From the IMG/VR virus record IMGVR_UViG_3300043449_000873, positions 1 to 26,815 of that record: DNA of 26,815 nt; one strand, given 5' to 3'. Shown one piece after another: positions 516 to 18,327 of this stretch. Made by a program: the position numbers and the translations under genes. The notes under the pieces were generated by a model. The model worked only from the letters and a program-made list of their open reading frames with translations. It did no database searches and was not told the DNA's origin. How positions within the stretch are numbered: the first letter of the stretch is position 1; each line of letters starts with the position of its first letter. This stretch comes from a virus.

Positions 516-2360
516 ATGGGAATTTTACAAAAAAAATCTGTAGGGAATATTGATTATGTATTAATCGATGATATGTACCCCACTTATAGTGGTGAATCAG
601 GAACTGTTGCCATTTCTACTTTAGGAGGTATATTTTCTTGTGAAAGTGGATATACTTGGTCAACATATTCTAATAAAAATATTTCGGGTGAAATATATGC
701 CTATAATCATACCGATGTTGGGTTAATACCAACTTTAGACACTTGGTTTAATTTTAATGGAGTAGCAACAACAACACCATTTACGTTAACTTCAAATTCA
801 TCTGGGTTTACCTTAACATTAGCAAATTCCGCACCACAATTAAATGTATCCAATGATACGATAGGTAGATTTCTAACAATTAGTAGTAATACATTTAGAG
901 CGGCAAATGCGCAATGGAATCAATTAAGGGCCGCACCTGCAAGAAATAACGTATCACCAATTAGATATAGTAATGCACATTTTGGAACAAGTGCCCAAAA
1001 TGATACTGCAAATATAATAACACCTGTTATGTTTACAGGTAGCAATAGAAATAATGATTATTTTTTTGAGGGGTATTATGTCGATTCTAGAGAAGGTGTT
1101 AACTCATCATTATCTAGGATTAGTAATAAAGTATCTGCGATGATGATTGAAGAACCTGTAAAATTTAATGAAACAGGTGTAAGTAAATCATTCACAACCA
1201 ATAAATGGATTACTGTAAATGATAGTGTAAATCAATGGTTTATGGGTACGGGTACAACATTTAGCGGTGGAGGAACTTCAATCTATATCTCAAATGACGG
1301 AGGACTGACTCCAAGTTATACAAACAGTACTCCTCAAGTATCACATTTTTATAAAGATTTTACATTTCCTAAAAACTTACAATCAAATGTTTTAATAGAG
1401 TTTTATTGGAAAGGTGTGGGAGAAGTTGGGTTAGATTATGGTAAAACTTATGTAACCCCAACAACAGTAACTCCATTAGCGGGTACCCAAGTTTCTTCAA
1501 TCTATTCTGTTGGTTTAACTAACTATCAAAATACCGCCTCATTTACTTATCAATCAATAATCATAAATAAAGACGATGCAATAGACCAAACAAAAAGATT
1601 AGTCTTTAGTTGGATAAATGATAACTCATCAGGTACCAACCCACCATTTTGTGTTGATAGTTTAAGAATTTCATTTTATGTTAATGATGATTGGTACACA
1701 TTAACTTCAGGTGATACTGAAACCTTTAATTATAAAGGGTTTAGTGGAAATGGGTGGACCGTTGTAAATGGTGCAACTAATTTTTGGACTGTTGGTGTTT
1801 CAGAGTTTAGTGGTAGTAATGATAATTATTCTGCTTATATAACTAATGCAAATAATATAACATATTATGGTTCTGAATTTAATAATGCGGATAATAGAGG
1901 TTTGGCACAATACACAATAACAACTGCTCAAGTATCTCATTTTTATAAAGATTTTACATTAACAAGTGCGTCAACACTAACGTTTAATTGGAAGTGTTGG
2001 GGGGAAAATGGATTAACTACCTCACCAACTAACTATGACTATGGTACTGTTGTAATGACAACTACTGGAACTACTCCAGTTGCGGGTACTGAGGTGTCAA
2101 CAGTCCAAGCGACTGTAGGTGGTAACGGTAGGATTGGTGCAACAACAAATTCAGGTAAATTTAACGAAGGTTATGGTGGTTCTGATAATAATTGGAGAAC
2201 TGAAACTATTAATCTAAGTGCTTATTCAGGTCAAACCAAAAGAATAGTGTTTACTTGGAAAAATGATGGTTCGGTAGGTGACAACCCTCCATTTGTTGTT
2301 GACAATATACAAATAACAGGTATCGGTAATTGGTCAACTTACTTACAAAAAATAAACTAA
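516..2360 (+). CDS. Tail fibre/adhesin with two cleaved-adhesin-like (gingipain-type) domains
   Basis: 614 residues. The N-terminal ~225 residues are beta-rich and not recognised. Two related domains follow, at about residues 231-386 and 414-604. Each starts near a Trp (W231, W414) and contains the shared motif QVSHFYKDFT (residues 274 and 472), then a strand with a Trp (FYWKG, FNWKC), a DYG motif, and an ending of type RLVFSWxND...NPPFxVDxxxI. This is the pattern of the cleaved-adhesin/MAM-like jelly-roll domains of Bacteroidetes surface proteins such as gingipains, which bind protein or glycan. The start is supported by AGGAGA five bases upstream, one of the few clear Shine-Dalgarno-like sites here. 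A role in host-surface binding is inferred from the domains and from the fibre gene immediately before it. Confidence 0.6.
   Translation: MGILQKKSVGNIDYVLIDDMYPTYSGESGTVAISTLGGIFSCESGYTWSTYSNKNISGEIYAYNHTDVGLIPTLDTWFNFNGVATTTPFTLTSNSSGFTLTLANSAPQLNVSNDTIGRFLTISSNTFRAANAQWNQLRAAPARNNVSPIRYSNAHFGTSAQNDTANIITPVMFTGSNRNNDYFFEGYYVDSREGVNSSLSRISNKVSAMMIEEPVKFNETGVSKSFTTNKWITVNDSVNQWFMGTGTTFSGGGTSIYISNDGGLTPSYTNSTPQVSHFYKDFTFPKNLQSNVLIEFYWKGVGEVGLDYGKTYVTPTTVTPLAGTQVSSIYSVGLTNYQNTASFTYQSIIINKDDAIDQTKRLVFSWINDNSSGTNPPFCVDSLRISFYVNDDWYTLTSGDTETFNYKGFSGNGWTVVNGATNFWTVGVSEFSGSNDNYSAYITNANNITYYGSEFNNADNRGLAQYTITTAQVSHFYKDFTLTSASTLTFNWKCWGENGLTTSPTNYDYGTVVMTTTGTTPVAGTEVSTVQATVGGNGRIGATTNSGKFNEGYGGSDNNWRTETINLSAYSGQTKRIVFTWKNDGSVGDNPPFVVDNIQITGIGNWSTYLQKIN
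1206..2328 (+). repeat. Two imperfect tandem copies of an adhesin-like domain inside the fibre gene
   Basis: Copy 1 spans about 1206-1674 and copy 2 about 1755-2328. The best conserved stretch starts at 1335 and at 1929 (594 bases apart) and differs at one position in about 31 bases, while the rest has diverged strongly. An internal duplication followed by uneven divergence or gene conversion would explain this. Confidence 0.7.
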
Positions 2361-6241: not shown

Positions 6242-7366
6242 TTAGATTACATAAATTTGTCTTGGCATTGCGGTAAATTTCTTTTGTTTATTTAAGTTTT
6301 CCGCAAGTAACGCCTCTCTTTCCATAACCTTCTCAGGTCTCAGTCTGGTTAATCTACCTTCAGCACCAATCAATTCTTCTATCAATTTTGTTTTTTCATC
6401 TTTACCTTCAGTTGCTAATGATTGATAGTCCATTGTTAACTCACTATCAGGTGTTTTAATATTACCACTAAATTTACCTCTAACTTTAGAAAGAGCTTCT
6501 TTAGCGGATGCAAAGAAATATCTACGAACCCAAATTTGTGCTGGATTATTTAAATCAACCCAAGATATTTTATCGAAAGGTACATCAGATGGTAATTTAA
6601 TAATATCAGGATTATCTTTTAAACATTTGTCTCTATCTGAAGTACCCGTATCATAATACCAATACCATACTTGACCTTTTCTTAAAGACCCACTACCGAA
6701 GTCAAATTTACCACCAGGAACATTCATTAAATGAATCGCCTTCTTACCTTCAGGTAATGCAGTAATTCGGTAAGTTAAATCACCACCAATAATTCTTCTT
6801 TGTATGTTTATTTGTTGCATCCTAAGTAACATATCAAAGGCGGGCATCATAAAATAACTTCCTGACATATTACCCATTTGAGCAAAACCTCCGTTACCTC
6901 CGATACCTCCACCACCTAAAGTACCAAATGACCATGGGTCAAATAAAAGATTATTCATCGCGGTTGGTGTAAACCATAATAATTCATTTATTTCTCTACC
7001 CGCAGGTATTTCATAAATTTGTTTACCCCTCTCAAGAGTGAAGTAATCTTTTTTAAGTACATAATCACCACCCGCTTGTAAACCAACTATTTTAGAATAT
7101 GCGTAGGTATATCTTTCTTCATAGTCTAAACTTTTAGTTATGAACGCTCTTGATAGAGATTGAGTATCTAAATTAAGATTATATAATGAGGTCCACTGTG
7201 ATTCAATTAACCAATCCTGTACATATTGGGAATAATCTTCTATGGATAAAGCTAATATAGAGTCTAATTGCTCATCTTCTAATTCAACACTCCTTAAAGG
7301 AGCTCCTAATGTATGTCTCAATCTTGTATATAATTGAGTTCTTTCTGGTTCTGCGATAATTGACAT
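6242..7366 (-). CDS. Putative neck/head-completion protein (T4 gp13-like)
   Basis: 374 residues. The N-terminus has the helical pattern common in head-completion or neck proteins (LGAPLRSVELEDEQLDSILA, then SIEDYSQYVQDWLIESQW). A Gly-rich, Met-rich loop sits at about residues 150-175 (GGGGIGGNGG), followed by a beta-rich core and a helical C-terminus with EGRLTRLRPEKVMEREALL. No transmembrane segment is seen. In T4, gp13 and gp14 form the neck that closes the filled head and docks the tail. The gp14-like and gp15-like candidates across the divergent promoter region fit this. It has its own TATTTAT element and an AAGGA sequence seven bases before the ATG. The family call is from pattern memory and is moderate. 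Confidence 0.55.
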   Translation of the reverse strand: MSIIAEPERTQLYTRLRHTLGAPLRSVELEDEQLDSILALSIEDYSQYVQDWLIESQWTSLYNLNLDTQSLSRAFITKSLDYEERYTYAYSKIVGLQAGGDYVLKKDYFTLERGKQIYEIPAGREINELLWFTPTAMNNLLFDPWSFGTLGGGGIGGNGGFAQMGNMSGSYFMMPAFDMLLRMQQINIQRRIIGGDLTYRITALPEGKKAIHLMNVPGGKFDFGSGSLRKGQVWYWYYDTGTSDRDKCLKDNPDIIKLPSDVPFDKISWVDLNNPAQIWVRRYFFASAKEALSKVRGKFSGNIKTPDSELTMDYQSLATEGKDEKTKLIEELIGAEGRLTRLRPEKVMEREALLAENLNKQKKFTAMPRQIYVI

Positions 7367-7387: not shown

Positions 7388-8926
7388 TCATTTCAGTTGA
7401 TAAATTAATGCGTCTTTAGGGAACGTGTAAGAACCATTAACTATTTTAAATTTACTATTATCAAAAATTAATACTCCTTTACCTTTTCTAGCAAATATTA
7501 ACCAATCAGTTGTATATTTTTTAACTTGACCAGTATTCAAAACCGTAATCTCATTATTTTCCTCAACAATATTACCGTAAGGTTTTATTTGACATGTTTT
7601 AGTTTGACCATTTAAAATCACTTTACAGTCAATTCCTTGAATCATGTCTTCTTTATTCCCTAATTCCCCAATCTGTTCAACGTTATCGTCACCAAATTCT
7701 TTATTAAGGACCTCAACTGCATAATCTTCAGTTTTCCCACCCATCGTGTGTGTTGAACCTAAAGTCATCATTATATTTTTAAAAGTTTCTGAATTGGTAT
7801 TAAAAATTCTTGTTTTATATTGGTCTATAATTGATATTAATTTTTTAGTGTTACTTATTTGAACAAACGGAGGTAACCCAACCATTTTTAATTCAGGTTG
7901 ATTTGACGCTTTTAAAACTTTATTAACATCTCGTAATAAAATACAAAAACAACTATAATTAGTATTTAATTTATTTATCACTGACCTACCATCACTTTCT
8001 AAATCATAAATTCCTGACATAGAACCTTCGGAGTACTTATCTTTATCATAAAAATTATTGGGAAATACTTTTTTTAATATATCATCAATACCATACCTAA
8101 ACATGTTTTTAACTTTTGGGTTGACGTTGAATATGAATCTTATTGCCTCATTCATTTCACGGCTACACTTTTCACCAACACTTTCGGTAAGAATTTTTTT
8201 AACCATTAAACTTTCATTTAATTTTGTTTTGTCTTTTAATAAAAATAATTTATTAACAAACTCCCAATTAACAACATCCCAAAAATTATTGATATATTCG
8301 TCTTTTTTATTTCTATATTTTAAGTAATATGAGTGTTCCCACAAATCCAAACCTAAAATTGGGTATCCACCATCTTTTACAATATTCATTAATGGATTAT
8401 CTTGGTTTGGGGTTGTTGTAATTTTTAAAGTATTTTTTTTAGTCAAAACTAACCAAGCCCATCCTGACCCAAATCTATCTTTTGCGGACTCCTCAAACTT
8501 TGTTTTAAAATTTTTAAAACTACCGAAACTTTTATTAATTTGTTTTAATAATTCACCTGAAGGTTTTTGTTTTTTAGGTGAGAGCATTTTCCAAAATAAA
8601 GCATGATTAAATGCACCCCCAGCATTATTTCTAACAGTTTTGTCAAATTTACTAATAGATTTAATAATTTCTTCAAGTTCTAAATCACCACCTTTTCTTT
8701 TGGATAACGCGTTATTTAATTTATCAACGTATCCTTTATAATGTTTGTTGTAGTGGTACGTCATAGTTTCAGCATCTATAAATTGTTTTAATGCTGAGTA
8801 AGAATAAGGTAATTTTTCTATACCTATTTTTTTCATTTCAAGAAGAAAAAGATTTTCATTTTCTCTTTCTTCATGTAAGATTAACGATTCATTTATTAAG
8901 TTAATCTTATCTTGTATTTTTTTCAT
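7388..8926 (-). CDS. Mn-type superoxide dismutase fused to a PD-(D/E)XK nuclease-like domain, with prohead-protease-like sites
   Basis: 512 residues. Residues ~38-230 are a complete Fe/Mn superoxide dismutase with all four metal ligands: H58 (YHYNKH), H108 (FNHALFW), D194 and H198 (GLDLWEHSYY). AGG at 102-104 before the second His, and Q175 in NQDNPL, fit the Mn-type rather than the Fe-type. The C-terminal half (~250-512) is unrelated to SOD and ends in a nuclease-like core: E400, GID (431-433) and QIK (446-448). The same C-terminal half occurs in the zinc-ribbon protein at 11303-12790. Sites of the form (L/I)xE-S occur at residues 11-14, 236-239 and 246-249, at the N-terminus and at the domain junction. 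I infer a packaged, processed cargo protein. SOD call strong, nuclease call tentative. Confidence 0.85.
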   Translation of the reverse strand: MKKIQDKINLINESLILHEERENENLFLLEMKKIGIEKLPYSYSALKQFIDAETMTYHYNKHYKGYVDKLNNALSKRKGGDLELEEIIKSISKFDKTVRNNAGGAFNHALFWKMLSPKKQKPSGELLKQINKSFGSFKNFKTKFEESAKDRFGSGWAWLVLTKKNTLKITTTPNQDNPLMNIVKDGGYPILGLDLWEHSYYLKYRNKKDEYINNFWDVVNWEFVNKLFLLKDKTKLNESLMVKKILTESVGEKCSREMNEAIRFIFNVNPKVKNMFRYGIDDILKKVFPNNFYDKDKYSEGSMSGIYDLESDGRSVINKLNTNYSCFCILLRDVNKVLKASNQPELKMVGLPPFVQISNTKKLISIIDQYKTRIFNTNSETFKNIMMTLGSTHTMGGKTEDYAVEVLNKEFGDDNVEQIGELGNKEDMIQGIDCKVILNGQTKTCQIKPYGNIVEENNEITVLNTGQVKKYTTDWLIFARKGKGVLIFDNSKFKIVNGSYTFPKDALIYQLK

Positions 8927-8947
8927 ATGGCTTATAATAATATACTA

Positions 8948-8954
8948 ATAAATA
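8948..8954 (-). promoter_or_regulatory. TATTTAT element before the SOD fusion gene
   Basis: Minus-strand TATTTAT, 21 bases before the ATG at 8926, in the 43-base gap after the helicase gene. Confidence 0.45.
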
Positions 8955-8969
8955 AGCCGATATTTTGAT

Positions 8970-10736
8970 TTATCTCAAAGAGTTAATTCTATTCATCATC
9001 TCTTCAACAATGTCAGTTTTATCTAAATTGTCTCCCATAACAGTTTCAAATATATTTTTCTTGTTTGCCAAAATGTCATAAATAACACCTTCGATAGTGT
9101 TTTCAAATATGGGGTAATATACTGACACGTTTGATTTTTGACCATATCGATACGCTCTATCCTCAGCTTGTGAGTGGTCAGAAGGTACAAAAGACAGGTC
9201 ATTCATAATTACCGCTTCACCAGCAGTTAATGTTAATCCGACCCCTGCGGCTTTAAGGTTCCCAACAAAAACTTTAATTTTTTCGTTCTCTTGGAATTGG
9301 TCTACGGCATATTGTCTTTGTGGTTTACTTGTACTACCATCTAACCTAACCGCTTGTTTACCAAAATGGTCTGCAATTTTATTAAGAGTATCTGTAAAAT
9401 TAGTAAAAATAATTACTTTTTTATCTTGGTCTATAATATTTTGTGCGAGTTCAATTGTATTTGAAATTTTCTCTTCTGCTATTACTTGTCTAACCTTCAT
9501 TAATTTTGAAAATTGGACTGTTAATGAATTTGATTCTTCTTTTTTGTTATCGTACCAATCATAATATTCACCCATTAAATTTTCATACATTTTAGATTTT
9601 AATCTAAGGTAGACAGGTGTAATAATTTTATCTGGTAAATCTAAAACATCGGTTTTTAATCTCCTCAAGACTTGTCTCGAAGTTCTATCTCTTAATTCTT
9701 CTAAATTTGATGCCCCTGAAACGTTCCATATTTTACGATTACCCGCTTTAAACTGATAACCTTGACAGTATCTGATAGCATAAGCCATCCAATTTTGTGC
9801 AACAGGACTTTCAATTAAACTAAGTAGATTAAAATAATTCATTGGTCTTGAAGTCATTGGAGTACCTGTGAGTAACCAAAGCCTTTCTGTTCTTTTACTA
9901 AAACTATTAACTAATTTAGTTCTTTGAGCCTGACCATTTTGTATATAATGTGCCTCATCAATAATAATTAAATCAGGGTTAAATTGGTATATTAAACTTT
10001 CCTCTTTGTTTTTACCTGTATCATAAAAGTTTTTTAATATATCATAATTAACAATTACAAAATCATGTTCTAATGAAAAATTTTTACCTTCGGCAATGTA
10101 AACACTTCTATTCGTGTAATTAGAAATTTCTCTTTGCCAATTTATTTTTAAAGATGCGGGACAAACTATTAATATTCTTTTAGCCCCTGTCTCTAACGCG
10201 GCGATTATGGTTGATGTTGTTTTACCTAAACCCATATCATCGGCTAAAATATATCTTTTTGAACCTGTTAAATTCTCAATAGCGATTATTTGGTGAGACA
10301 GTGGGGGTCTATGGGAATACTTTGAATAGTCAATATTAACTTTTTCTATTTTATGGGTTTTTAATAAAGCACCTTTTGGTAACCAAAACTCGTGTAAAGA
10401 TTCATTTTCAAAAAATTTACCCCATATATGATAAGATTTTTCTTTTTCTGCCAATAACTTCTCAACCCAAACTTGTTTAGGGATTGTCATAAATAATTTT
10501 TCGTCCGCAATTTTTTTAGCGAAATAAGGGTCCATATCGACCCACTTACGAGCAACTTTTGGTTTTACATCGTAATAATTTATTATATAATCAGATTGCG
10601 CTCTGGTCGGGTAAAATTTCTTATTACTTTCTTTTTTACTTTTGATGTATAAAATATAGTTATTTGCACCTGAATATGTGTCAAGGATATTCATTGCTTT
10701 AACTTCTATTAGGTTAGAACTATTTTCTACATTCAC
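8970..10736 (-). CDS. SNF2-family DNA helicase/translocase
   Basis: ATP-dependent translocase of helicase superfamily 2, SNF2 type. 588 residues with all motifs in order: Walker A DDMGLGKT (166-173), DEAH (260-263), TGTP (290-293), the C-lobe FTNFTDT strand (~444-450), LDGSTS (465-470), AGVGLTLT (497-504) and motif VI QAEDRAYRYGQ (523-533). The arginine-finger region is intact. About 140 N-terminal residues are not recognised; the architecture resembles small SMARCAL1-like or bacterial single-protein SNF2 enzymes. In T4 a different SF2 helicase, UvsW, remodels replication and recombination forks; a similar role here is inferred. It is the first gene of the leftward unit, read from a divergent promoter region. 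Confidence 0.93.
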   Translation of the reverse strand: MNVENSSNLIEVKAMNILDTYSGANNYILYIKSKKESNKKFYPTRAQSDYIINYYDVKPKVARKWVDMDPYFAKKIADEKLFMTIPKQVWVEKLLAEKEKSYHIWGKFFENESLHEFWLPKGALLKTHKIEKVNIDYSKYSHRPPLSHQIIAIENLTGSKRYILADDMGLGKTTSTIIAALETGAKRILIVCPASLKINWQREISNYTNRSVYIAEGKNFSLEHDFVIVNYDILKNFYDTGKNKEESLIYQFNPDLIIIDEAHYIQNGQAQRTKLVNSFSKRTERLWLLTGTPMTSRPMNYFNLLSLIESPVAQNWMAYAIRYCQGYQFKAGNRKIWNVSGASNLEELRDRTSRQVLRRLKTDVLDLPDKIITPVYLRLKSKMYENLMGEYYDWYDNKKEESNSLTVQFSKLMKVRQVIAEEKISNTIELAQNIIDQDKKVIIFTNFTDTLNKIADHFGKQAVRLDGSTSKPQRQYAVDQFQENEKIKVFVGNLKAAGVGLTLTAGEAVIMNDLSFVPSDHSQAEDRAYRYGQKSNVSVYYPIFENTIEGVIYDILANKKNIFETVMGDNLDKTDIVEEMMNRINSLR

Positions 10737-10765
10737 TATATCAATACTTATCTTTAATAAAAATA

Positions 10766-10772
10766 ATAAATA
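10766..10772 (-). promoter_or_regulatory. TATTTAT element before the SNF2 helicase gene
   Basis: Minus-strand TATTTAT, 29 bases before the ATG at 10736. Only six bases separate it from the plus-strand copy at 10779-10785, forming a divergent pair. Confidence 0.5.
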
Positions 10773-10778
10773 GTAATA

Positions 10779-10785
10779 TATTTAT
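10779..10785 (+). promoter_or_regulatory. TATTTAT element before the gp14-like gene
   Basis: TATTTAT five bases before the ATG at 10791. It is the right half of the divergent pair, and the very short spacing suggests a leaderless or nearly leaderless message. Confidence 0.5.
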
Positions 10786-10790
10786 CAATA

Positions 10791-11303
10791 ATGAATAATA
10801 AAGTACCAATTACAAGGGTCGGTAAATTTTTTGGTTCCGATGATTATAACCTTGATTTATCTATAGGTGAAGAATGGTTATATGGTGATATGAACTTTAC
10901 GTTAGTTCTTTATAGAATAGATAGAATTAAAACCAAAACTGATGATGTTTATGGTGAAACAGTGAAAGATGGGATTAAATTTTTACCTCCTGTTGAGTTT
11001 AAAGGTTACGTCCAAATAATGGCTCCTGAAAATAAAACCATAGGGACATCAAAAGTAAATCAATTTGAGCCTGGTAATATAAAAGTTTCAGTTTATATCA
11101 AACATTTAGAGGAATTAGGTGTGGACATTAACTATGGTGATTATATAGGATATTACGAAACTGAAGATAAAGTTAGGTACTATGTAGTTAATAATGATGG
11201 TAGAGTAGTATCCGACAATAAACATAATTATGCTGGGTACAAACCTTATTATAGAACAATTGGTGGTTCCGCAGTTACAGAAAATGAATTTAGAGGATTA
11301 TAA
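10791..11303 (+). CDS. Possible neck/head-tail connector protein (gp14-like position)
   Basis: 170 residues, beta-rich and acidic. Notable segments are YRIDRIKTKTDDVYGE, KFLPPVEFKGYVQIMAPENK, HLEELGVDINYGDYIGYYE and a C-terminal GYKPYYRTIGG. No signal peptide or membrane segment is visible. It opens the rightward neck-tail cluster that continues with a gp15-like tail terminator and the sheath, the position gp14 or a connector occupies in T4-type phages. It is shorter than T4 gp14 (256), and I see no decisive motif. Its TAA overlaps the ATG of the next gene by one base (TAATG), so the two are translationally coupled. Confidence 0.55.
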   Translation: MNNKVPITRVGKFFGSDDYNLDLSIGEEWLYGDMNFTLVLYRIDRIKTKTDDVYGETVKDGIKFLPPVEFKGYVQIMAPENKTIGTSKVNQFEPGNIKVSVYIKHLEELGVDINYGDYIGYYETEDKVRYYVVNNDGRVVSDNKHNYAGYKPYYRTIGGSAVTENEFRGL

Positions 11304-12790
11304 TGAAAATCATTTTAAGTGAAACTCAAATTATATCATTATTAGAGAAAATAAATTCTAATGAAGTTACTTGCGATAAATGTGGGTGGTCTTGGGATTT
11401 ATCTGACGGTGGTGATGACCCATATATTTGCCATAAATGTGGACATAGTAATTCTGAAGAAGATTATGTTGGTAAAAAAGTAATGGTTTATTACAATTTA
11501 CATAAACATACATTCTCAGTTACTTATAAATCAAAAGTTGTATTACACGCAGATTATGTTAAATTAAAAGATGTTGAGTTTAGGGTTAGAACTGGTGGTA
11601 AAGAAAAAGTTAGAAATGAAAAAAGAAAAAATGTTCACGCATTTGTAATAGGAAAATTAGTAGATTTTTGTGAACACCCATGTAAAGATTTACCAAAAGA
11701 AAGTTCTTCTAAAATAGTTACTTATGACCCTTATAAGTATGATACTTTTGTTTATAAAGATACTGAAGAACCTGTCCACACTGCTAAAGAGATTGATATG
11801 ATTAATCATAGAAACAAATTATTCGTAATTTCTGAAATTAAATCGTCTTTAAATGAAAGTGAGGAAGTTGATGGTCCACCAAATAAGTTTACATACACTA
11901 CAATAGGATTATTCCAAAAAGGTACAACTAAAAGATATTACTTTAATGACCCTAAACCTGTTGATGGTGAGGATATTCCTGACGGCATGATTGGTATTAA
12001 CGGTGCGTTAGGTAATTTTTTATTTACTAAGAATGATGTTGGGTTTGACTCAAAAAATAATAAATTATTTGTTAGCAAAGATATTTTAGATTCTAAATAT
12101 AATGGTATAAAAAGTAATAGTGACGCTGAAAAAATTGGTATCACACCTATTAAAATTAGAGAGGCGTTAAAAAAAGCGTTTCCTTCTAATTGGCATGAAG
12201 AAGATTCAATATTCACTGCGGGATTAAGAGACGTATATAGTATTGGTGAAAAAACAAATGATGGGGAAGAGACTTGGTCTATAATGAATTACTTCGATAC
12301 TAAACCTGAAATACATGCTCTACTTTATCTAAAATATATGGATGAAAAATCTAATGAGGAGATAGTTGAGTGGATGTCAAATCTTTTTAGAAATGATGAA
12401 GAATTTACAAAATTGTTAGTTAATAGACAATGGTCTTCAATAGAGAACGGTTTAAGACTTGAGAGAGACTCTGTTTCTAATTTTCTAAATAAAATATCAA
12501 AAGGAAACGTAGTATATTATCCTCACGGTTCTAAAATGGATAGATGGTCAGGAGTTGACGTTACAATTGAAGGGGTTAATTACCAAATTAAACCTTTAAA
12601 ATCTTATGAAGAAGAGAATGGTGTATTTACAGTCAATACTTATGGTATGAGAGATTATACATCAAAAACTAAATTAGATAAAATAGCTTTTGCAAATTCT
12701 AAAGAAGCGTTAGTTTTTGATAATAAAAATTACAACGTGGTTAGTCGTAACAAAGCAGTATTTAACCAAACTCCAAATATTATAAATTAA
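11303..12790 (+). CDS. Zinc-ribbon protein with PD-(D/E)XK nuclease-like C-terminus, with prohead-protease-like sites
   Basis: 495 residues. The N-terminus MKIILSE-T matches a (L/I)xE cleavage rule at residues 5-8. A four-Cys zinc ribbon follows (C24, C27, C43, C46; CDKCGWSW...CHKCGH). Next is a basic beta-rich module (~55-120) with NLHKHTFSV and RKNVHAFVIG. A second site, LNE-S, lies at 183-186, before the C-terminal half. That half matches the SOD fusion protein: LKKAFPSNWHEED (289-301) against LKKVFPNNFYDKD there, then E387, GVD (417-419), QIKP (428-431), an EEN/TVNT segment and LVFDN (470-474). The E...D...QxK spacing suggests a PD-(D/E)XK nuclease fold, unproven. It lies between the possible gp14-like and gp15-like genes, coupled to the former by a TAATG overlap with GAGG upstream. 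Confidence 0.8.
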   Translation: MKIILSETQIISLLEKINSNEVTCDKCGWSWDLSDGGDDPYICHKCGHSNSEEDYVGKKVMVYYNLHKHTFSVTYKSKVVLHADYVKLKDVEFRVRTGGKEKVRNEKRKNVHAFVIGKLVDFCEHPCKDLPKESSSKIVTYDPYKYDTFVYKDTEEPVHTAKEIDMINHRNKLFVISEIKSSLNESEEVDGPPNKFTYTTIGLFQKGTTKRYYFNDPKPVDGEDIPDGMIGINGALGNFLFTKNDVGFDSKNNKLFVSKDILDSKYNGIKSNSDAEKIGITPIKIREALKKAFPSNWHEEDSIFTAGLRDVYSIGEKTNDGEETWSIMNYFDTKPEIHALLYLKYMDEKSNEEIVEWMSNLFRNDEEFTKLLVNRQWSSIENGLRLERDSVSNFLNKISKGNVVYYPHGSKMDRWSGVDVTIEGVNYQIKPLKSYEEENGVFTVNTYGMRDYTSKTKLDKIAFANSKEALVFDNKNYNVVSRNKAVFNQTPNIIN

Positions 12791-12795
12791 GAAGA

Positions 12796-13833
12796 ATGGC
12801 TCTACCTAAAAAAATAAAAAAATATATTCCACTAACAGAATCTAAAACTTTGTTACCCAGAAGACATGAGTTATTAGATAAGATTAATAAAGATGGTACT
12901 TATTTACCGAAATCAATTTTACATGCGGATTTAGATAAAGGTTTTTTGGATTTTGTTAAAGACGAATTAAAATGTGTTGTTGAAGGTAGAACAATACCAA
13001 TGGTGGATATTTTAGTTACAACACAGAATTGGACTCAGTTTATTGAAACATGGGATTTTCAAAATATTGATAAAAATGCCGAACCACCATTTATAACGGT
13101 CATTAGAGTTCCTGAAGTTAAATTTGGTACTAATCCTGCGGTGTTATATAACATACCAAATAGACGACAATATTTTTATGCACAGGTCCCAACTTGGGAT
13201 GGACAAAGAGCAGGTATGGATATATACAAAATACCTCAACCTGTTCCTGTAGATATTACATATCAAGTTAAGATTGTGTGTAATAGAATGAGAGAATTAA
13301 ATCAATTCAATAAAATTGTAATTGAAAAGTTTGCATCCAAACAAGCTTACCAAGTAATTAAAGGTCATTACATACCAATAATAAATGGTAATATATCTGA
13401 CGAATCAGTAATGGATGTTGAAAAAAGAAAGTATTATATTCAAACTTATGAATTTACTATGTTAGGATTTCTTATGGATGAGGACGAATTTCAAGTATCC
13501 CCAGCAGTTACTAGATTATTACAAGTTGTTGAGGTTGACACTAAAACCTCAAGAAGACAGGTTAAAAAAATGCCTTCGATAGAGAAGGACCCCACAGAAA
13601 TTTTATTTGTAGTTGGTAATGACACAATTTCTCAAGTATTTGATTATGTTGCAGATATTAAGATAGTAGGAACTGAAAATATTGACGGATATGATGTGTT
13701 TATAAATAACGATTATTATGGTACTGATATAAGTACAATTCAGATAAACACAAATGATGTATTAAAGTTTACTATAACTAAGACAAATATTAACCAAGAA
13801 TCAAAAATATTATTATACGGAATTTTAATTTAA
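12796..13833 (+). CDS. Putative tail terminator/sheath-stabilising protein (T4 gp15-like)
   Basis: 345 residues, soluble. The core at ~150-250 has the gp15 pattern: PVDITYQVKIVCNRMRELNQF, a long helix, HYIPIINGN, then KRKYYIQTYEFTMLGFLMD. In T4, gp15 is a hexameric ring closing the top of the tube and sheath and joining tail to head. The C-terminal ~70 residues form an additional beta-rich module (KDPTEILFVVGNDTISQVF and onward). It lies five bases after the zinc-ribbon gene, and the sheath gene is the next rightward gene, as expected for a tail cluster. The N-terminus contains IPLTES, which also fits a (L/I)xE-S site, but a tail protein has no obvious reason to be cut there. Call based on pattern and synteny. 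Confidence 0.6.
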   Translation: MALPKKIKKYIPLTESKTLLPRRHELLDKINKDGTYLPKSILHADLDKGFLDFVKDELKCVVEGRTIPMVDILVTTQNWTQFIETWDFQNIDKNAEPPFITVIRVPEVKFGTNPAVLYNIPNRRQYFYAQVPTWDGQRAGMDIYKIPQPVPVDITYQVKIVCNRMRELNQFNKIVIEKFASKQAYQVIKGHYIPIINGNISDESVMDVEKRKYYIQTYEFTMLGFLMDEDEFQVSPAVTRLLQVVEVDTKTSRRQVKKMPSIEKDPTEILFVVGNDTISQVFDYVADIKIVGTENIDGYDVFINNDYYGTDISTIQINTNDVLKFTITKTNINQESKILLYGILI

Positions 13834-14117: not shown

Positions 14118-17100
14118 ATGGCATCTAACAACAAAGTATTCGTATCTCCTGGGGTGTACACATCAGAGGTGGATTTAAGTTTTGTAGCACAAAGTGTTGG
14201 GGTTACAACTTTAGGAATTGTTGGTGAGACTTTAAAAGGTCCTGCTTTCGAACCTATCTTTATAAGAAACTTCGATGAGTTTACTACATATTTTGGAGGA
14301 ACTTCCCCTGAAAAATTCATTAACACACAAATACCTAAATATGAAGCGGCTTACATCGCTAAATCATATCTACAACAGTCTAATCAATTATTTGTAACAA
14401 GAGTATTGGGATTGTCAGGTTATGACGCAGGTCCTTCATGGTCTATTACCACAAAGGCAAACGTTGACCCAAAAACAGTTGGTTTCTTTTGTGAAGACCC
14501 TGTGATTAGTAATTGTCAACCTGATTGTAATGATTATTTAACAATTGATTATTCAATAGACTTCTCAGGTTGCACTAATGATGTAAATAGTATATCATTT
14601 GTAACCCCATCTCAAATACCTGATGAAATCTCATCAAAAATGAATTTGTCATATGAAAAATTTAATGGGTCAACATCAACTTTATATCAAGATATGACGA
14701 CTCAAATTTTTGAGATATTAAATGATAATTCATTAGAGATGACATCTATTAATTATTATGGTGCGATATCAGGAGAAACATATGATGTTTTATCACCAAT
14801 ATTCACCGCAGAAACAAATGTTTTCGGTGTTAATAATGTTAGTGCGTCTTTAATTGATTATAGTGATTCTGTTAATGACCCTTGGTATTACGCGACTTTT
14901 GATAATATTGGAAATGCGGTTTATAGTGGTTTTTCATATTGGAGTATTGTTACAGATTTGGCATTAGTTCCTCTAACTACAACCACAACGATGGTACCAG
15001 TAACAACAACGACAACAACTAATCCTTGTGTTACACCTGTACCTACCTCAACTACAACTACAACAACTGCGGCGCCTGTAAATTGTTATACAGGTAAATT
15101 GGTTGGTAGATTATATGTTTTCTCAGGAACTGCATATACTGACTACGACGATTTAGTTATTGCAACATTACGTTCAAGAGGTTTAGCGACTTATGGTAGT
15201 GACGACGGTGCGGTTTATGAAGTATCAGGTTTAACTGATGTTGAAATGGTATGTGGTAATGAATATTCAGCAGTTACTAAAAATCCTTACTCTACATTTG
15301 GTTTAAATGTTAAAGATAAAGATGGTAATAAATTCTTCTTTGAGACATCATTCTCAAATTCAGATAGTAAATACCTACCAAAAGTATTTGGGTCTTCAAA
15401 CTTTGCAAAACCTAAAGATGTCGTTCCATTATTTGTGGAGGAAAGATTCCAATCTTTATTAAATTATGCTTGGAGAAAGGGTTATATTAGAGGTTTGAAT
15501 TGTGAACTAACCGCATTACCAAACGCTAGACAAGGTAACGACCCAACGTCAATAGCTTGGTACTTAGAAAAATATCAATCACCAGTTTCTCCTTGGGTTG
15601 TATCTGAATTAAGAGGTAACAAAGTTTATAACTTATTTAAAGTTACTACAATTGCGGACGGAAACGCGGCGAACATTGAGGTAAAAATATCAATTGCAAA
15701 CATATCATTTAATAATGGAACATTTGATGTTTTAGTTAGAGATTTCTTTGACTCTGATTCGGCACCTACAGTTCTTGAAAAATTCACTAACTGTTCTATG
15801 GACCCAAATCAAAATAACTTTATCGCTAAAAAAATAGGTACTGTTGATGGGGAGTACGCATTAAACTCTAAATTTATTATGGTTGAGATTAATGAAGATG
15901 CACCTGTTGACGCACTACCTTGTGGATTCCAAGGTTATTCATTTAGAGAGTATGCAGGAGTAAGACCCCCATTCCCAATTTATAAAACTAAATACGATTT
16001 TCCAGGTGAAGTAGTATATAACCCACCATTTGGATTATCTTCAGGGGCTGATGATATTGTTAGAAGTCCTGGTGATAATATTCGTAGAACTTATTTAGGT
16101 ATCTCTGACACAGTTGGATTTGACGTTGATTTCTACGGATATAAAGGAAAACAATTACCATTAGATATTTGTACTGATGTTAGTGGTGAGGATTGGTTCT
16201 ACAAAACAAGAGGTTTCCACATGGACATAAATGCTTCAGCAATCACTATTGGAAATAGTTTTATTACAAGTGGTGCTCCAGCGTTCTTTGCAGGTTCTGC
16301 TCCATTTACAAGTGACCCTGAAGATTCATCAAATCCTTACTTTAGATTATTTGCACGTAAATTTAGTTTCCTATGTTCGGGCGGTTTTGATGGATGGGAT
16401 ATCTATAGAGAAAGAAGAACTAACGAAGATAAATTTGTCTTAGGTCAAACAGGATATAGAAAAGGTGCTTGTCCATCATTTAAGTACCCTACCGCAACAG
16501 GTTGGGGAGCGTTTAAACAAATCACTGTTGGTGATAATACTCAAGATTGGGCAAACACTGACTATTACGCATACTTGTTAGGTCAAAAAACATTTGCGAA
16601 CCCTGAAGCGGTTAACATAAATGTATTTGTAACTCCAGGTATTGACTATGTTAATATGTCTAACTTAGTTGAGGATGCGGTTGACATGGTTGAAAATGAT
16701 AGAGCGGACTCAATCTACATTTGTACAACACCTGATTACAATATGTTAGTACCTACAACAGGAGACCAATTAGACTTTATCTACCCTCAAGAAGCGGTTG
16801 ATAACTTAGAAGAGTCAGGAATTGATTCAAACTATACCGCAACTTATTACCCTTGGGTTCTTACAAGAGATAGTGTTAATAATACACAAATTTATATACC
16901 ACCAACGGCTGAAGTTACAAGAAACTTAGCGTTAACAGATAATATCGCGTTCCCTTGGTTCGCGGCGGCTGGTTACACTCGTGGTATTGTAAATGCTATT
17001 AAAGCGAGAAAGAAACTTACTCAAGAAGATAGAGATGTTCTTTACAAAGGTAGAATTAACCCGATTGCAACTTTCTCAGATGTGGGTACAGTAATTTGGG

Positions 17101-17447
17101 GTAATAAAACTTTACAAATTAGAGAATCTGCATTAGATAGAATCAACGTTAGAAGATTGTTATTACAAGCACGTAAATTGATTTCTGCGGTTTCTGTAAG
17201 ATTATTATTTGAACAAAACGATGAGAAGGTAAGACAAGATTTCTTAGATGCGGTTAACCCTATCTTAGATGCAATTAGAAGAGACAGAGGTCTTTATGAC
17301 TTCCGAGTAACAGTATCTTCAGACACTGCAGATTTAGATAGAAACCAATTAACAGGTAAAATTTATATTAAACCTACTAAATCTTTAGAATTCATTGATA
17401 TTACATTCTATATAACACCTACAGGTGCTTCGTTTGATAATATCTAA
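14118..17447 (+). CDS. 18: Contractile tail sheath protein (T4 gp18-like) with large Thr-linked insertion
   Basis: Main subunit of the contractile sheath around the tail tube. 1109 residues against 659 in T4 gp18. The N-terminus is typical (FVSPGVYTSEVDLS, then GIVGETLKGPAFEPIFI and FDEFTTYFGG). The C-terminal part (~880-1109) is also typical: YPWVLTRD, IPPTAEVTRNLALTDN, FPWFAAAGYTRG and GRINPIATFSDVGTVIWGNKT, ending in the conserved polymerisation and domain-swap strands. The excess length lies in the middle, including two Thr runs (287-291, 296-301) and a third ending in TTTTTTAAP (312-320), followed by an inserted beta-rich domain with paired Cys residues. Such insertions sit on the outer surface of the sheath and tolerate variation. 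No Shine-Dalgarno is visible. A hairpin follows the stop. Confidence 0.93.
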   Translation: MASNNKVFVSPGVYTSEVDLSFVAQSVGVTTLGIVGETLKGPAFEPIFIRNFDEFTTYFGGTSPEKFINTQIPKYEAAYIAKSYLQQSNQLFVTRVLGLSGYDAGPSWSITTKANVDPKTVGFFCEDPVISNCQPDCNDYLTIDYSIDFSGCTNDVNSISFVTPSQIPDEISSKMNLSYEKFNGSTSTLYQDMTTQIFEILNDNSLEMTSINYYGAISGETYDVLSPIFTAETNVFGVNNVSASLIDYSDSVNDPWYYATFDNIGNAVYSGFSYWSIVTDLALVPLTTTTTMVPVTTTTTTNPCVTPVPTSTTTTTTAAPVNCYTGKLVGRLYVFSGTAYTDYDDLVIATLRSRGLATYGSDDGAVYEVSGLTDVEMVCGNEYSAVTKNPYSTFGLNVKDKDGNKFFFETSFSNSDSKYLPKVFGSSNFAKPKDVVPLFVEERFQSLLNYAWRKGYIRGLNCELTALPNARQGNDPTSIAWYLEKYQSPVSPWVVSELRGNKVYNLFKVTTIADGNAANIEVKISIANISFNNGTFDVLVRDFFDSDSAPTVLEKFTNCSMDPNQNNFIAKKIGTVDGEYALNSKFIMVEINEDAPVDALPCGFQGYSFREYAGVRPPFPIYKTKYDFPGEVVYNPPFGLSSGADDIVRSPGDNIRRTYLGISDTVGFDVDFYGYKGKQLPLDICTDVSGEDWFYKTRGFHMDINASAITIGNSFITSGAPAFFAGSAPFTSDPEDSSNPYFRLFARKFSFLCSGGFDGWDIYRERRTNEDKFVLGQTGYRKGACPSFKYPTATGWGAFKQITVGDNTQDWANTDYYAYLLGQKTFANPEAVNINVFVTPGIDYVNMSNLVEDAVDMVENDRADSIYICTTPDYNMLVPTTGDQLDFIYPQEAVDNLEESGIDSNYTATYYPWVLTRDSVNNTQIYIPPTAEVTRNLALTDNIAFPWFAAAGYTRGIVNAIKARKKLTQEDRDVLYKGRINPIATFSDVGTVIWGNKTLQIRESALDRINVRRLLLQARKLISAVSVRLLFEQNDEKVRQDFLDAVNPILDAIRRDRGLYDFRVTVSSDTADLDRNQLTGKIYIKPTKSLEFIDITFYITPTGASFDNI
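14976..15077 (+). repeat. Thr-rich low-complexity linker in the sheath (ACA/ACT/ACC codons)
   Basis: Encodes sheath residues 287-320: three runs of five to six Thr separated by Pro, Val, Cys and Met, ending TTTTTTAAP. Nearly the same coding string recurs at 24993-25016 in the giant baseplate gene (TTTTTTAAP followed by Pro). Confidence 0.75.
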
Positions 17448-17505: not shown

Positions 17506-18327
17506 ATGAATAGAAACAAAAAATATTTAATAGAGGGTATTGACGAGACAGGAACACCTGACATGAAATATTACGCCTTTGATTGGGATGATAATATCAT
17601 GACAATGCCGACTAAAATAATTTTAAAAGACGATAAAGGTAAAGAAGTTGGTATGTCAACCGAAGACTTTGCAGAGTACAGAACAGAGATTGGTAATGAG
17701 CCATTTGAATATGAGGGGAAAAAAATTGTTGGTTTTGCAGAAAACCCATTCAGATATTTTGGTGTAGAGGGAGACAAACAATTTGTAGTCGACTCAATGT
17801 TGGCTAAAACAGGTCCCGCATGGAATGACTTTGTCGAGGCTATTAATAACGGCTCAGTATTTTCAATTATAACCGCTAGAGGACACACCCCAAATGTTAT
17901 TAAAGAGGCGGTGTATAATCTAATCGTGTCAAACCACAACGGTATAAGTTCAACAGAGTTAATTAAAAATCTTAAAAAATATAGAGAACTTGCGGATGAA
18001 GATAATATGTCAAATAGGGAGTTAATTAAAAACTATCTTGACTTATGTAAATTTTATCCTGTTAGTTATGGAGAAGGTTCCGCCACAAATCCTGAAGAAG
18101 GTAAAATTAAAGCGATGAAAGAATTTATACAATATATTAGAGAGATTTCTGAAGATATTAATAAGAAAGCATATTTAAAGAACAAAGTATCTAATAATTT
18201 TAAATTACCTAGTATTGGTTTTTCAGATGATGATATTAGAAATGTAGAGAAAATGAAAACTCATTTTGAAGATGAACCAATATTGAAAACGTATTCAACT
18301 GCAGGAGGAATTAAAAAACTTTATTAA
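17506..18327 (+). CDS. HAD-superfamily phosphatase, likely cargo gene in the tail cluster
   Basis: 273 residues. HAD motifs: I, FDWDDN with nucleophile D26 and D28; II, IITARGHTP with T123; III, a Lys before the last motif (K233, or K202 in EEGKIKAM); IV, GFSDDDIRNVEKM (D241-D243). The likely reaction is hydrolysis of a phosphomonoester; the substrate cannot be told. The ~95 residues between motifs I and II, and the helical stretch after motif II, would form a cap domain. The N-terminus NKKYLIE-G fits the (L/I)xE rule (residues 8-11), as in the two fusion proteins of this window. It separates sheath from tube, genes normally adjacent in T4, and has its own promoter element and flanking hairpins, the layout of an inserted accessory gene. 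Confidence 0.85.
   Translation: MNRNKKYLIEGIDETGTPDMKYYAFDWDDNIMTMPTKIILKDDKGKEVGMSTEDFAEYRTEIGNEPFEYEGKKIVGFAENPFRYFGVEGDKQFVVDSMLAKTGPAWNDFVEAINNGSVFSIITARGHTPNVIKEAVYNLIVSNHNGISSTELIKNLKKYRELADEDNMSNRELIKNYLDLCKFYPVSYGEGSATNPEEGKIKAMKEFIQYIREISEDINKKAYLKNKVSNNFKLPSIGFSDDDIRNVEKMKTHFEDEPILKTYSTAGGIKKLY

Follow-up and report, generated by a model that had tools for sequence, protein, structure and literature searches.

Two genes of a 26.8-kb fragment of an uncultivated virus (IMG/VR record IMGVR_UViG_3300043449_000873, positions 1 to 26,815, hereafter the window) encode multidomain proteins that we consider likely to be precursors of capsid cargo, cut by the prohead protease of the phage and injected together with its DNA. 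The two open reading frames, located as in an original prediction made from the sequence alone, correspond to P0001 (512 aa; 7388..8926, minus strand), in which a superoxide dismutase (SOD) precedes a nuclease-like body, and P0002 (495 aa; 11303..12790, plus strand), in which a zinc ribbon and a Phage_L5_gp82 (L5gp82) domain precede a paralogous body. According to our proposal both precursors would be synthesized late, a short leader would direct them into the prohead, and a gp21-type protease would cut after (L/I)xE motifs, removing the leader and setting the domains apart. From P0001 a Mn-type SOD (about residues 31-238) would thereby be set free along with a PD-(D/E)XK nuclease (about 249-512), and from P0002 a Zn-ribbon/L5gp82 protein (16-185) along with a second nuclease (186-495). 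Packaged with the DNA and ejected at infection, the SOD would reduce superoxide levels in the infected cell, and the nuclease would cut DNA that lacks the protection of the phage, be it that of the host chromosome, of plasmids, of prophages or of rival phages. The motifs at the domain borders and the leaders were absent from the original prediction.

P0001 starts with a leader of 30 residues (8837..8926, minus strand, like all other parts of this gene) that ends in NLFLLE|M, with a predicted prohead-protease site after E30. It is followed by a Fe/Mn SOD domain (residues 37-226; 8249..8818), an interdomain linker with the predicted sites TKLNE|S (E238) and KILTE|S (E248) (8183..8248), and the body (residues 249-512; 7391..8182), which consists of a helical part and a PD-(D/E)XK core (about 392-512) with the motif residues E400, D433, Q446 and K448. 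Full-length relatives were found in many IMG/VR contigs, and 27 divergent SOD-nuclease proteins (less than 85% identical) were used to count the motifs. An [IL]xE was present before the SOD, at position 30, in 27/27, after the SOD in 26/27 and before the nuclease in 25/27, and the residue in its middle was not fixed (N, T, S, F, L, K and others). The only other [IL]xE that was equally conserved in these proteins belongs to the SOD metal signature DLWEH, in which the W is invariant. The glutamate before the nuclease (E248) was invariant in 20 aligned bodies.

The SOD head itself, recognized already in the original prediction, was detected by both PF00081 and PF02777 (Pfam E=4e-41) and matched MnSOD 6gsc in phmmer (E=5e-63) with the metal-ligand segments intact. 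The segments YHYNKHY (57), FNHALFW (106) and LDLWEH (193) align to 6gsc, and by analogy with E. coli SodA, H58, H108, D194 and H198 would be the metal ligands. Cleavage after E30 and E238 would give a mature SOD of 208 residues (31-238), with Met as its first residue in 24/27 relatives; free SOD enzymes normally have a size of about 208 residues.

P0002 has a similar layout (all parts on the plus strand). Its leader, MKIILSE|TQIISLLE|K (11303..11347), contains two (L/I)xE sites (E7 and E15), has a low predicted local distance difference test score (pLDDT) and keeps M1, E7 and Q9 invariant among 28 relatives. The head of P0002 had been described as a zinc ribbon plus a basic module. The zinc ribbon was found by pattern search and alignment (CDKCGWSW...CHKC, residues 24-47; 11372..11443), and the basic module turned out to be a Phage_L5_gp82 domain (residues 57-170; 11471..11812; PF25735, E=6.7e-31; phrog_586). 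In front of the nuclease there is also a small beta domain (about residues 194-260; 11882..12082), which was delimited by the secondary structure of the AlphaFold2 model and is also present in L009, L284 and L252. The linker between the L5gp82 domain and the beta domain (11834..11875) carries the predicted site SSLNE|S (E185), and a site was found at this junction in 12/12 fused Zn-ribbon/L5gp82 homologues (LNE, ITE, LSE, IKE, IRE, LIE or LKE), in a stretch that is disordered in the P0002 model (pLDDT about 28). The body of P0002 comprises residues 280-495 (12140..12787), with a PD-(D/E)XK core at 381-495 and the motif residues E387, D419, Q428 and K430. Head-only proteins, which have no site, were dropped as an independent test, as their tails are of at most 4 residues.

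The (L/I)xE motif is the site type of the T4 prohead protease gp21, and cleavage of P0001 and P0002 is predicted from this likeness. A gp21-type protease gene (Peptidase_S77) was found in 4/4 near-complete relatives (308-322 kb) and in one 174-kb record (E=1.2e-24; E-values of the locus searches apply to the candidates only), and shorter related fragments without the gene are uninformative. Those major capsid proteins of the relatives that were examined contain FLINE|A or HLINE|A, and SL[NTSF]E|Q occurs in the corresponding scaffold proteins. In a T4 control, a similar script gave gp23 FLTE|A at 65, Alt ITE-6, IPII/IPIII IAE-10, IPI ITE-19 and gp24 LRE-10. Alt of T4 is reportedly processed at ITE-6 and LTE-619 (PMC5694885).

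Both precursors begin with short leaders (MKIILSETQIISLLEK and MKELIKRILTES) that resemble those of T4 capsid cargo, with MKIILSE|T and MKELIKRILTE|S being similar to MELITE|L of Alt and MAKINELLRE|S of gp24. A strict leader pattern opens 13/326 and 22/351 genes in two near-complete relatives, where 0.12 and 0.19 were expected from internal stretches, and it opens 0 genes of T4. Because the pattern was written after the leaders had been seen, this count describes recurrence and is not an independent prediction. Dozens of otherwise unrelated genes with a shared leader (MKIIITES, MKYLITES, MKELIKKILREE) were seen in the 322-kb relative (L216-L233) and the 308-kb relative (L351-L368), many of them in tandem arrays of small proteins that are reminiscent of the adjacent T4 genes ipII/ipIII. 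These arrays possibly represent a repertoire of capsid cargo.

The view of a shared body with exchangeable heads was right and even understated, since the search for N-terminal partners gave at least seven architectures, in which loss, splitting and duplication of modules take place at the domain borders. Besides the SOD-nuclease form there are proteins of the form leader-site-nuclease, from which the SOD is gone. Such SOD-less proteins are of three kinds that fall in three separate places of the tree within the SOD clade, which is most simply explained by three independent losses of the SOD; two of the three kinds were each seen in several contigs that come from different samples. The Zn-ribbon-L5gp82-beta-nuclease form also exists without the zinc ribbon (L070), and in L284/L287 this second head and the body are encoded separately, by neighbouring genes that both have a leader of their own. 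About four changes are implied by the tree for the joining or leaving of the L5gp82 head by the body, and only one is forced by well-supported branches. L267:4297-6918 encodes 873 aa in the order SOD-nuclease-KLTE|S...LLE|G-nuclease, and predicted protease sites separate each part from the next. The tree placement of L267, which combines a SOD with bodies like those of a third paralogue, is supported, on a long branch, and we did not use it as evidence of a second fusion. The third paralogue is a 318-aa leader-nuclease protein encoded between gp21 and the scaffold/capsid genes of one genome and its close relatives; a clade-wide ancestral head gene of this type is unsupported, as it was absent at the gp21 loci of four other genomes.

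A further architecture, beta-nuclease-KIITE|T-zinc ribbon-peptidase-like, was found in L009:5911-7659 (582 aa), the C-terminal part of which is HExxH metallopeptidase-like; the zinc ribbon and this metallopeptidase-like part form a separate gene in other phages (L022, L023 and L027). The same zinc ribbon was also seen together with a GxFKPPHxGH-type nucleotidyltransferase in phage proteins (up to 1372 aa; L025, L041, L049-L051 and L060), two of which (L051 and L060) have a leader-like (L/I)xE segment at the start.

An alternative explanation is that P0001 and P0002 act uncut inside the cell, the SOD against oxidative stress and the nuclease in recycling host DNA, with the linkers serving as hinges. 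The motifs of SOD and nuclease both look intact, solo SOD genes occur in some phage records and large phages are known to have nucleases against host DNA (DenA/DenB in T4), all of which would suit such effectors. However, a hinge function gives no reason for conserving Leu/Ile-x-Glu at each border while its middle residue changes, and this explanation accounts neither for leaders that are common to unrelated proteins nor for splitting and deletion at those very sites. We regard it as improbable; to call the body a putative effector as such is plausible.

The C-terminal halves of P0001 and P0002 are related, as originally predicted. The matches that had been quoted are exact: LKKVFPNNFYDKD (284-296) corresponds to LKKAFPSNWHEED (289-301), GID (431) and QIKP (446-449) to GVD (417) and QIKP (428-431), EEN occurs in both, and LIFDN (486) corresponds to LVFDN (470). 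BLASTP aligned the two proteins over about 220 aa (E=1e-6), a hidden Markov model of each family found the other, and a profile-profile comparison of the bodies gave a probability of 97.9 (E=5e-13, 205 columns). The body-body score was 39.7 bits, compared to at most 25.8 in 200 shuffles. Together these results establish homology and rule out chance similarity of the C-termini. The N-terminal halves scored 16.5 bits only, in keeping with their description as unrelated.

The proposed PD-(D/E)XK fold was supported by structure models as well. The AlphaFold2 model of the P0001 body (pLDDT 87; predicted template modelling score 0.81) matched I-Ssp6803I (Foldseek probability 1.0), archaeal Hjc (Z 8.3, 3.5 Å, 101 residues) and further the SPARDA nuclease, NhoI, DpnI, EcoRV and PvuII. 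The P0002 body, modelled separately from its own alignment, showed the same order of helices and strands and matched 2ost (Z 7.8), Hjc (7.1), NhoI (7.1) and DpnI (6.5). The agreement of the two folds was judged via these common enzyme matches; for both bodies, all matches with Z of at least 5 were PD-(D/E)XK enzymes. As Z scores of 7-8 are of intermediate size and Foldseek reached at best a modest E of 0.017, the assignment relies on the uniformity of the matches and on the motif. Nine residues (G158, E162, G185, D189, G193, D195, Q208, K210 and P211 in body numbering) were invariant in 30 bodies of both families, E162, D195, Q208 and K210 being kept also in the third paralogue, and D-x12-Q-x-K lies on strands one and two of the central sheet. 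Its spacing equals that in Sulfolobus Hjc, D-x12-E-x-K (D42, E55, K57). The models thus support the assignment of both bodies to PD-(D/E)XK nuclease folds with an intact motif, from which a cleavage activity is predicted, and by these common matches the outcome named in advance as refuting the original prediction did not occur.

Database searches placed the body outside known families. No convincing family was found in Pfam, PHROGs or NCBIfam, and despite the Hjc-like fold (Z 8.3) there was no match to a Hjc family in Pfam or NCBIfam. Among viral models, Foldseek retrieved a full-length SOD-nuclease (A0A6J5L953) as well as BFVD A0A8D9CCA0, a protein of 1113 aa from a marine phage whose model contains the body (template modelling score 0.78). 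A bacterial relative was not detected in 84,980 species genomes, a weak negative as these were scanned with one narrow pattern. Membership in a known defence or anti-defence family was disregarded, as PADLOC gave only weak matches to LmuC (42 residues, E=6e-4) and PifA (0.017).

The same data bear on the possibility that the body is a non-catalytic DNA-binding carrier that holds the heads on the packaged DNA during ejection. The body stays constant while the SOD is repeatedly lost, and Q replaces D/E at the third position of its motif, as might be expected of a carrier. The invariance of E, D, Q and K in 30 divergent sequences, however, would be needless for a mere DNA binder, and we think it unlikely that the body has this role.

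Both genes sit among neck and tail genes. The P0001 gene lies 21 bases upstream of a neck gene for a T4 gp13-like head-tail adaptor (6242..7366, minus strand; phrog_211, E=6e-9), and upstream of P0001 an SNF2-type helicase is encoded (8970..10736, minus strand; PF00176, phrog_62). The two precursor genes had been said to flank the helicase and the neck genes. The helicase is indeed located between them, together with a 170-aa gene, but the neck gene is downstream of P0001. The start of the P0002 gene coincides with the stop of its upstream neighbour, and 5 bases separate its end from a conserved 345-aa gene (12796..13833, plus strand), which is followed by the tail sheath and tube genes in the same order in relatives. 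As a consequence of this neck and tail gene context, late expression of P0001 and P0002 is suggested. A scan for promoters and terminators was uninformative, with a signal at background level.

This context, together with the presence of one paralogue within the head gene cluster and of Hjc resolvases among the closest structural matches, would also fit a head-associated, Holliday-junction-resolvase-like nuclease that debranches DNA during packaging and uses its leader for assembly only. Such a function would leave the SOD, Zn-ribbon and L5gp82 heads and the cut sites between head and nuclease unexplained. Moreover, the head-cluster paralogue was absent at the four other gp21 loci examined and the likeness to the Hjc fold is generic, as it extends to DpnI, NhoI and EcoRV. 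Of the explanations considered here, we find this one the least probable.

The gene order of the window was found again in metagenomic phage contigs of up to 322 kb. In these relatives a small gene for ribosomal protein S21 (PF01165, E=2.9e-8) adjoins the protease gene on the reverse strand, matching the jumbo myoviruses encoding bS21 that were described from freshwater lakes with predicted Bacteroidetes hosts (PMC9723584). From this gene we infer that the window belongs to the clade of bS21-encoding jumbo myoviruses, and its carrier is probably a T4-like jumbo phage with a freshwater Bacteroidota host.

Three other proteins of the window were noted. A 273-aa protein encoded between the tail sheath and tube genes (17506-18327, plus strand) begins with MNRNKKYLIE|G and contains YYAFDWDDN, which is HAD-phosphatase-like, with no family found in Pfam. 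The tail sheath protein (14118-17447, plus strand; 1109 aa) has a threonine-rich insert (TTTTTTMVPVTTTTTTNPC...TSTTTTTTAAP). A 614-aa protein (516-2360, plus strand) with repeated SHFYKDFT...LTFNWKCWGENGL segments is probably a virion adhesin.

Several points weigh against packaged and cleaved cargo. The site next to the body is missing in L004 and displaced in L014 (2/27). The [IL]xE motif is expected by chance at about 0.11 per 10 residues, and because it is so short and common, single occurrences mean little. The shared leaders could serve another sorting purpose. The nuclease body was found in no isolate of the phage collection searched, and the window, being a 26.8-kb fragment, contains no prohead protease gene. 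Cleavage, packaging, injection, the enzymatic activities and their targets are all predicted, and the phage would need to shield its own DNA from a nuclease packaged with it. Nucleases are physically possible as cargo, because foreign proteins, staphylococcal nuclease among them, are packaged by means of the T4 targeting sequence CTS (PMC3012670).

In a wider sense, we lean slightly towards the view that jumbo phages of Bacteroidota have a general capsid-cargo system of leader-bearing proteins, some of them polyproteins cut in trans, by which SOD and nucleases are injected together. If true, the combination of leader and (L/I)xE would be a testable rule that marks the head contents of an uncultivated jumbo phage. 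For lake phages, a large group in which no isolate has the body, the sequence by itself would then suffice to predict virion cargo. It would also mean that an antioxidant enzyme and a nuclease are delivered at entry, with oxidative stress and resident DNA as obstacles early in infection. No report of a SOD in phage virions, of SOD and PD-(D/E)XK nucleases packaged together by a bacteriophage or of prohead-protease cleavage of a phage polyprotein was found in a search that left most subscription journals outside its scope; the prohead protease as predicted cutter in trans, SOD as putative cargo and the new nuclease family set the proposed system apart from those known.

Compared to known systems, the predicted cargo is most similar to the internal proteins of T4 (IPI, IPII, IPIII and Alt), which share the N-terminal leader ending in (L/I)xE, the gp21-type protease and the variable and dispensable nature of the cargo. 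In Alt, both termini are processed (PMC5694885, PMC9958956). In contrast to P0001 and P0002, the T4 proteins are packaged, which is predicted here, they are not SODs or nucleases, and we found no report of their being cut into two enzymes. The leaders, MKTYQEFIAE in T4 and MKIILSE or MKELIKRILTE here, are too short to judge homology. In other jumbo phages (SPN3US and phiKZ) head proteins are also cut by the prohead protease and some are thought to be injected (PMC5694885), but with the motif A-x-E (SPN3US) instead of (L/I)xE, with long propeptides and with other cargo.

Polyvalent proteins, described by Iyer et al., 2017 (PMC5512222), are multidomain proteins with unrelated activities that are encoded beside virion genes and predicted to be injected; some are separated by proteolysis, and the authors liken them to polyproteins. 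P0001 combines a SOD and a nuclease fold in one polypeptide, and its association with the virion is predicted. SOD is not mentioned in that paper. Polyvalent proteins presumably use embedded peptidase domains, whereas the predicted cutter here is the prohead protease in trans, and no peptidase domain was found by Pfam in P0001 or P0002. A packaged viral SOD is known from chlorovirus PBCV-1, where it is expressed late, packaged in the virion and associated with reduced superoxide levels during infection of the cells (PMC7019647); that enzyme is of the Cu/Zn type, comes from an algal virus and does not belong to a precursor with a nuclease. With Hjc, I-Ssp6803I, DpnI and similar PD-(D/E)XK nucleases the body shares the core fold and the order E...D...(E/Q)xK, but it differs from them in its extra helical front, in having Q for D/E and in the leader and heads that are fused or adjacent to it.

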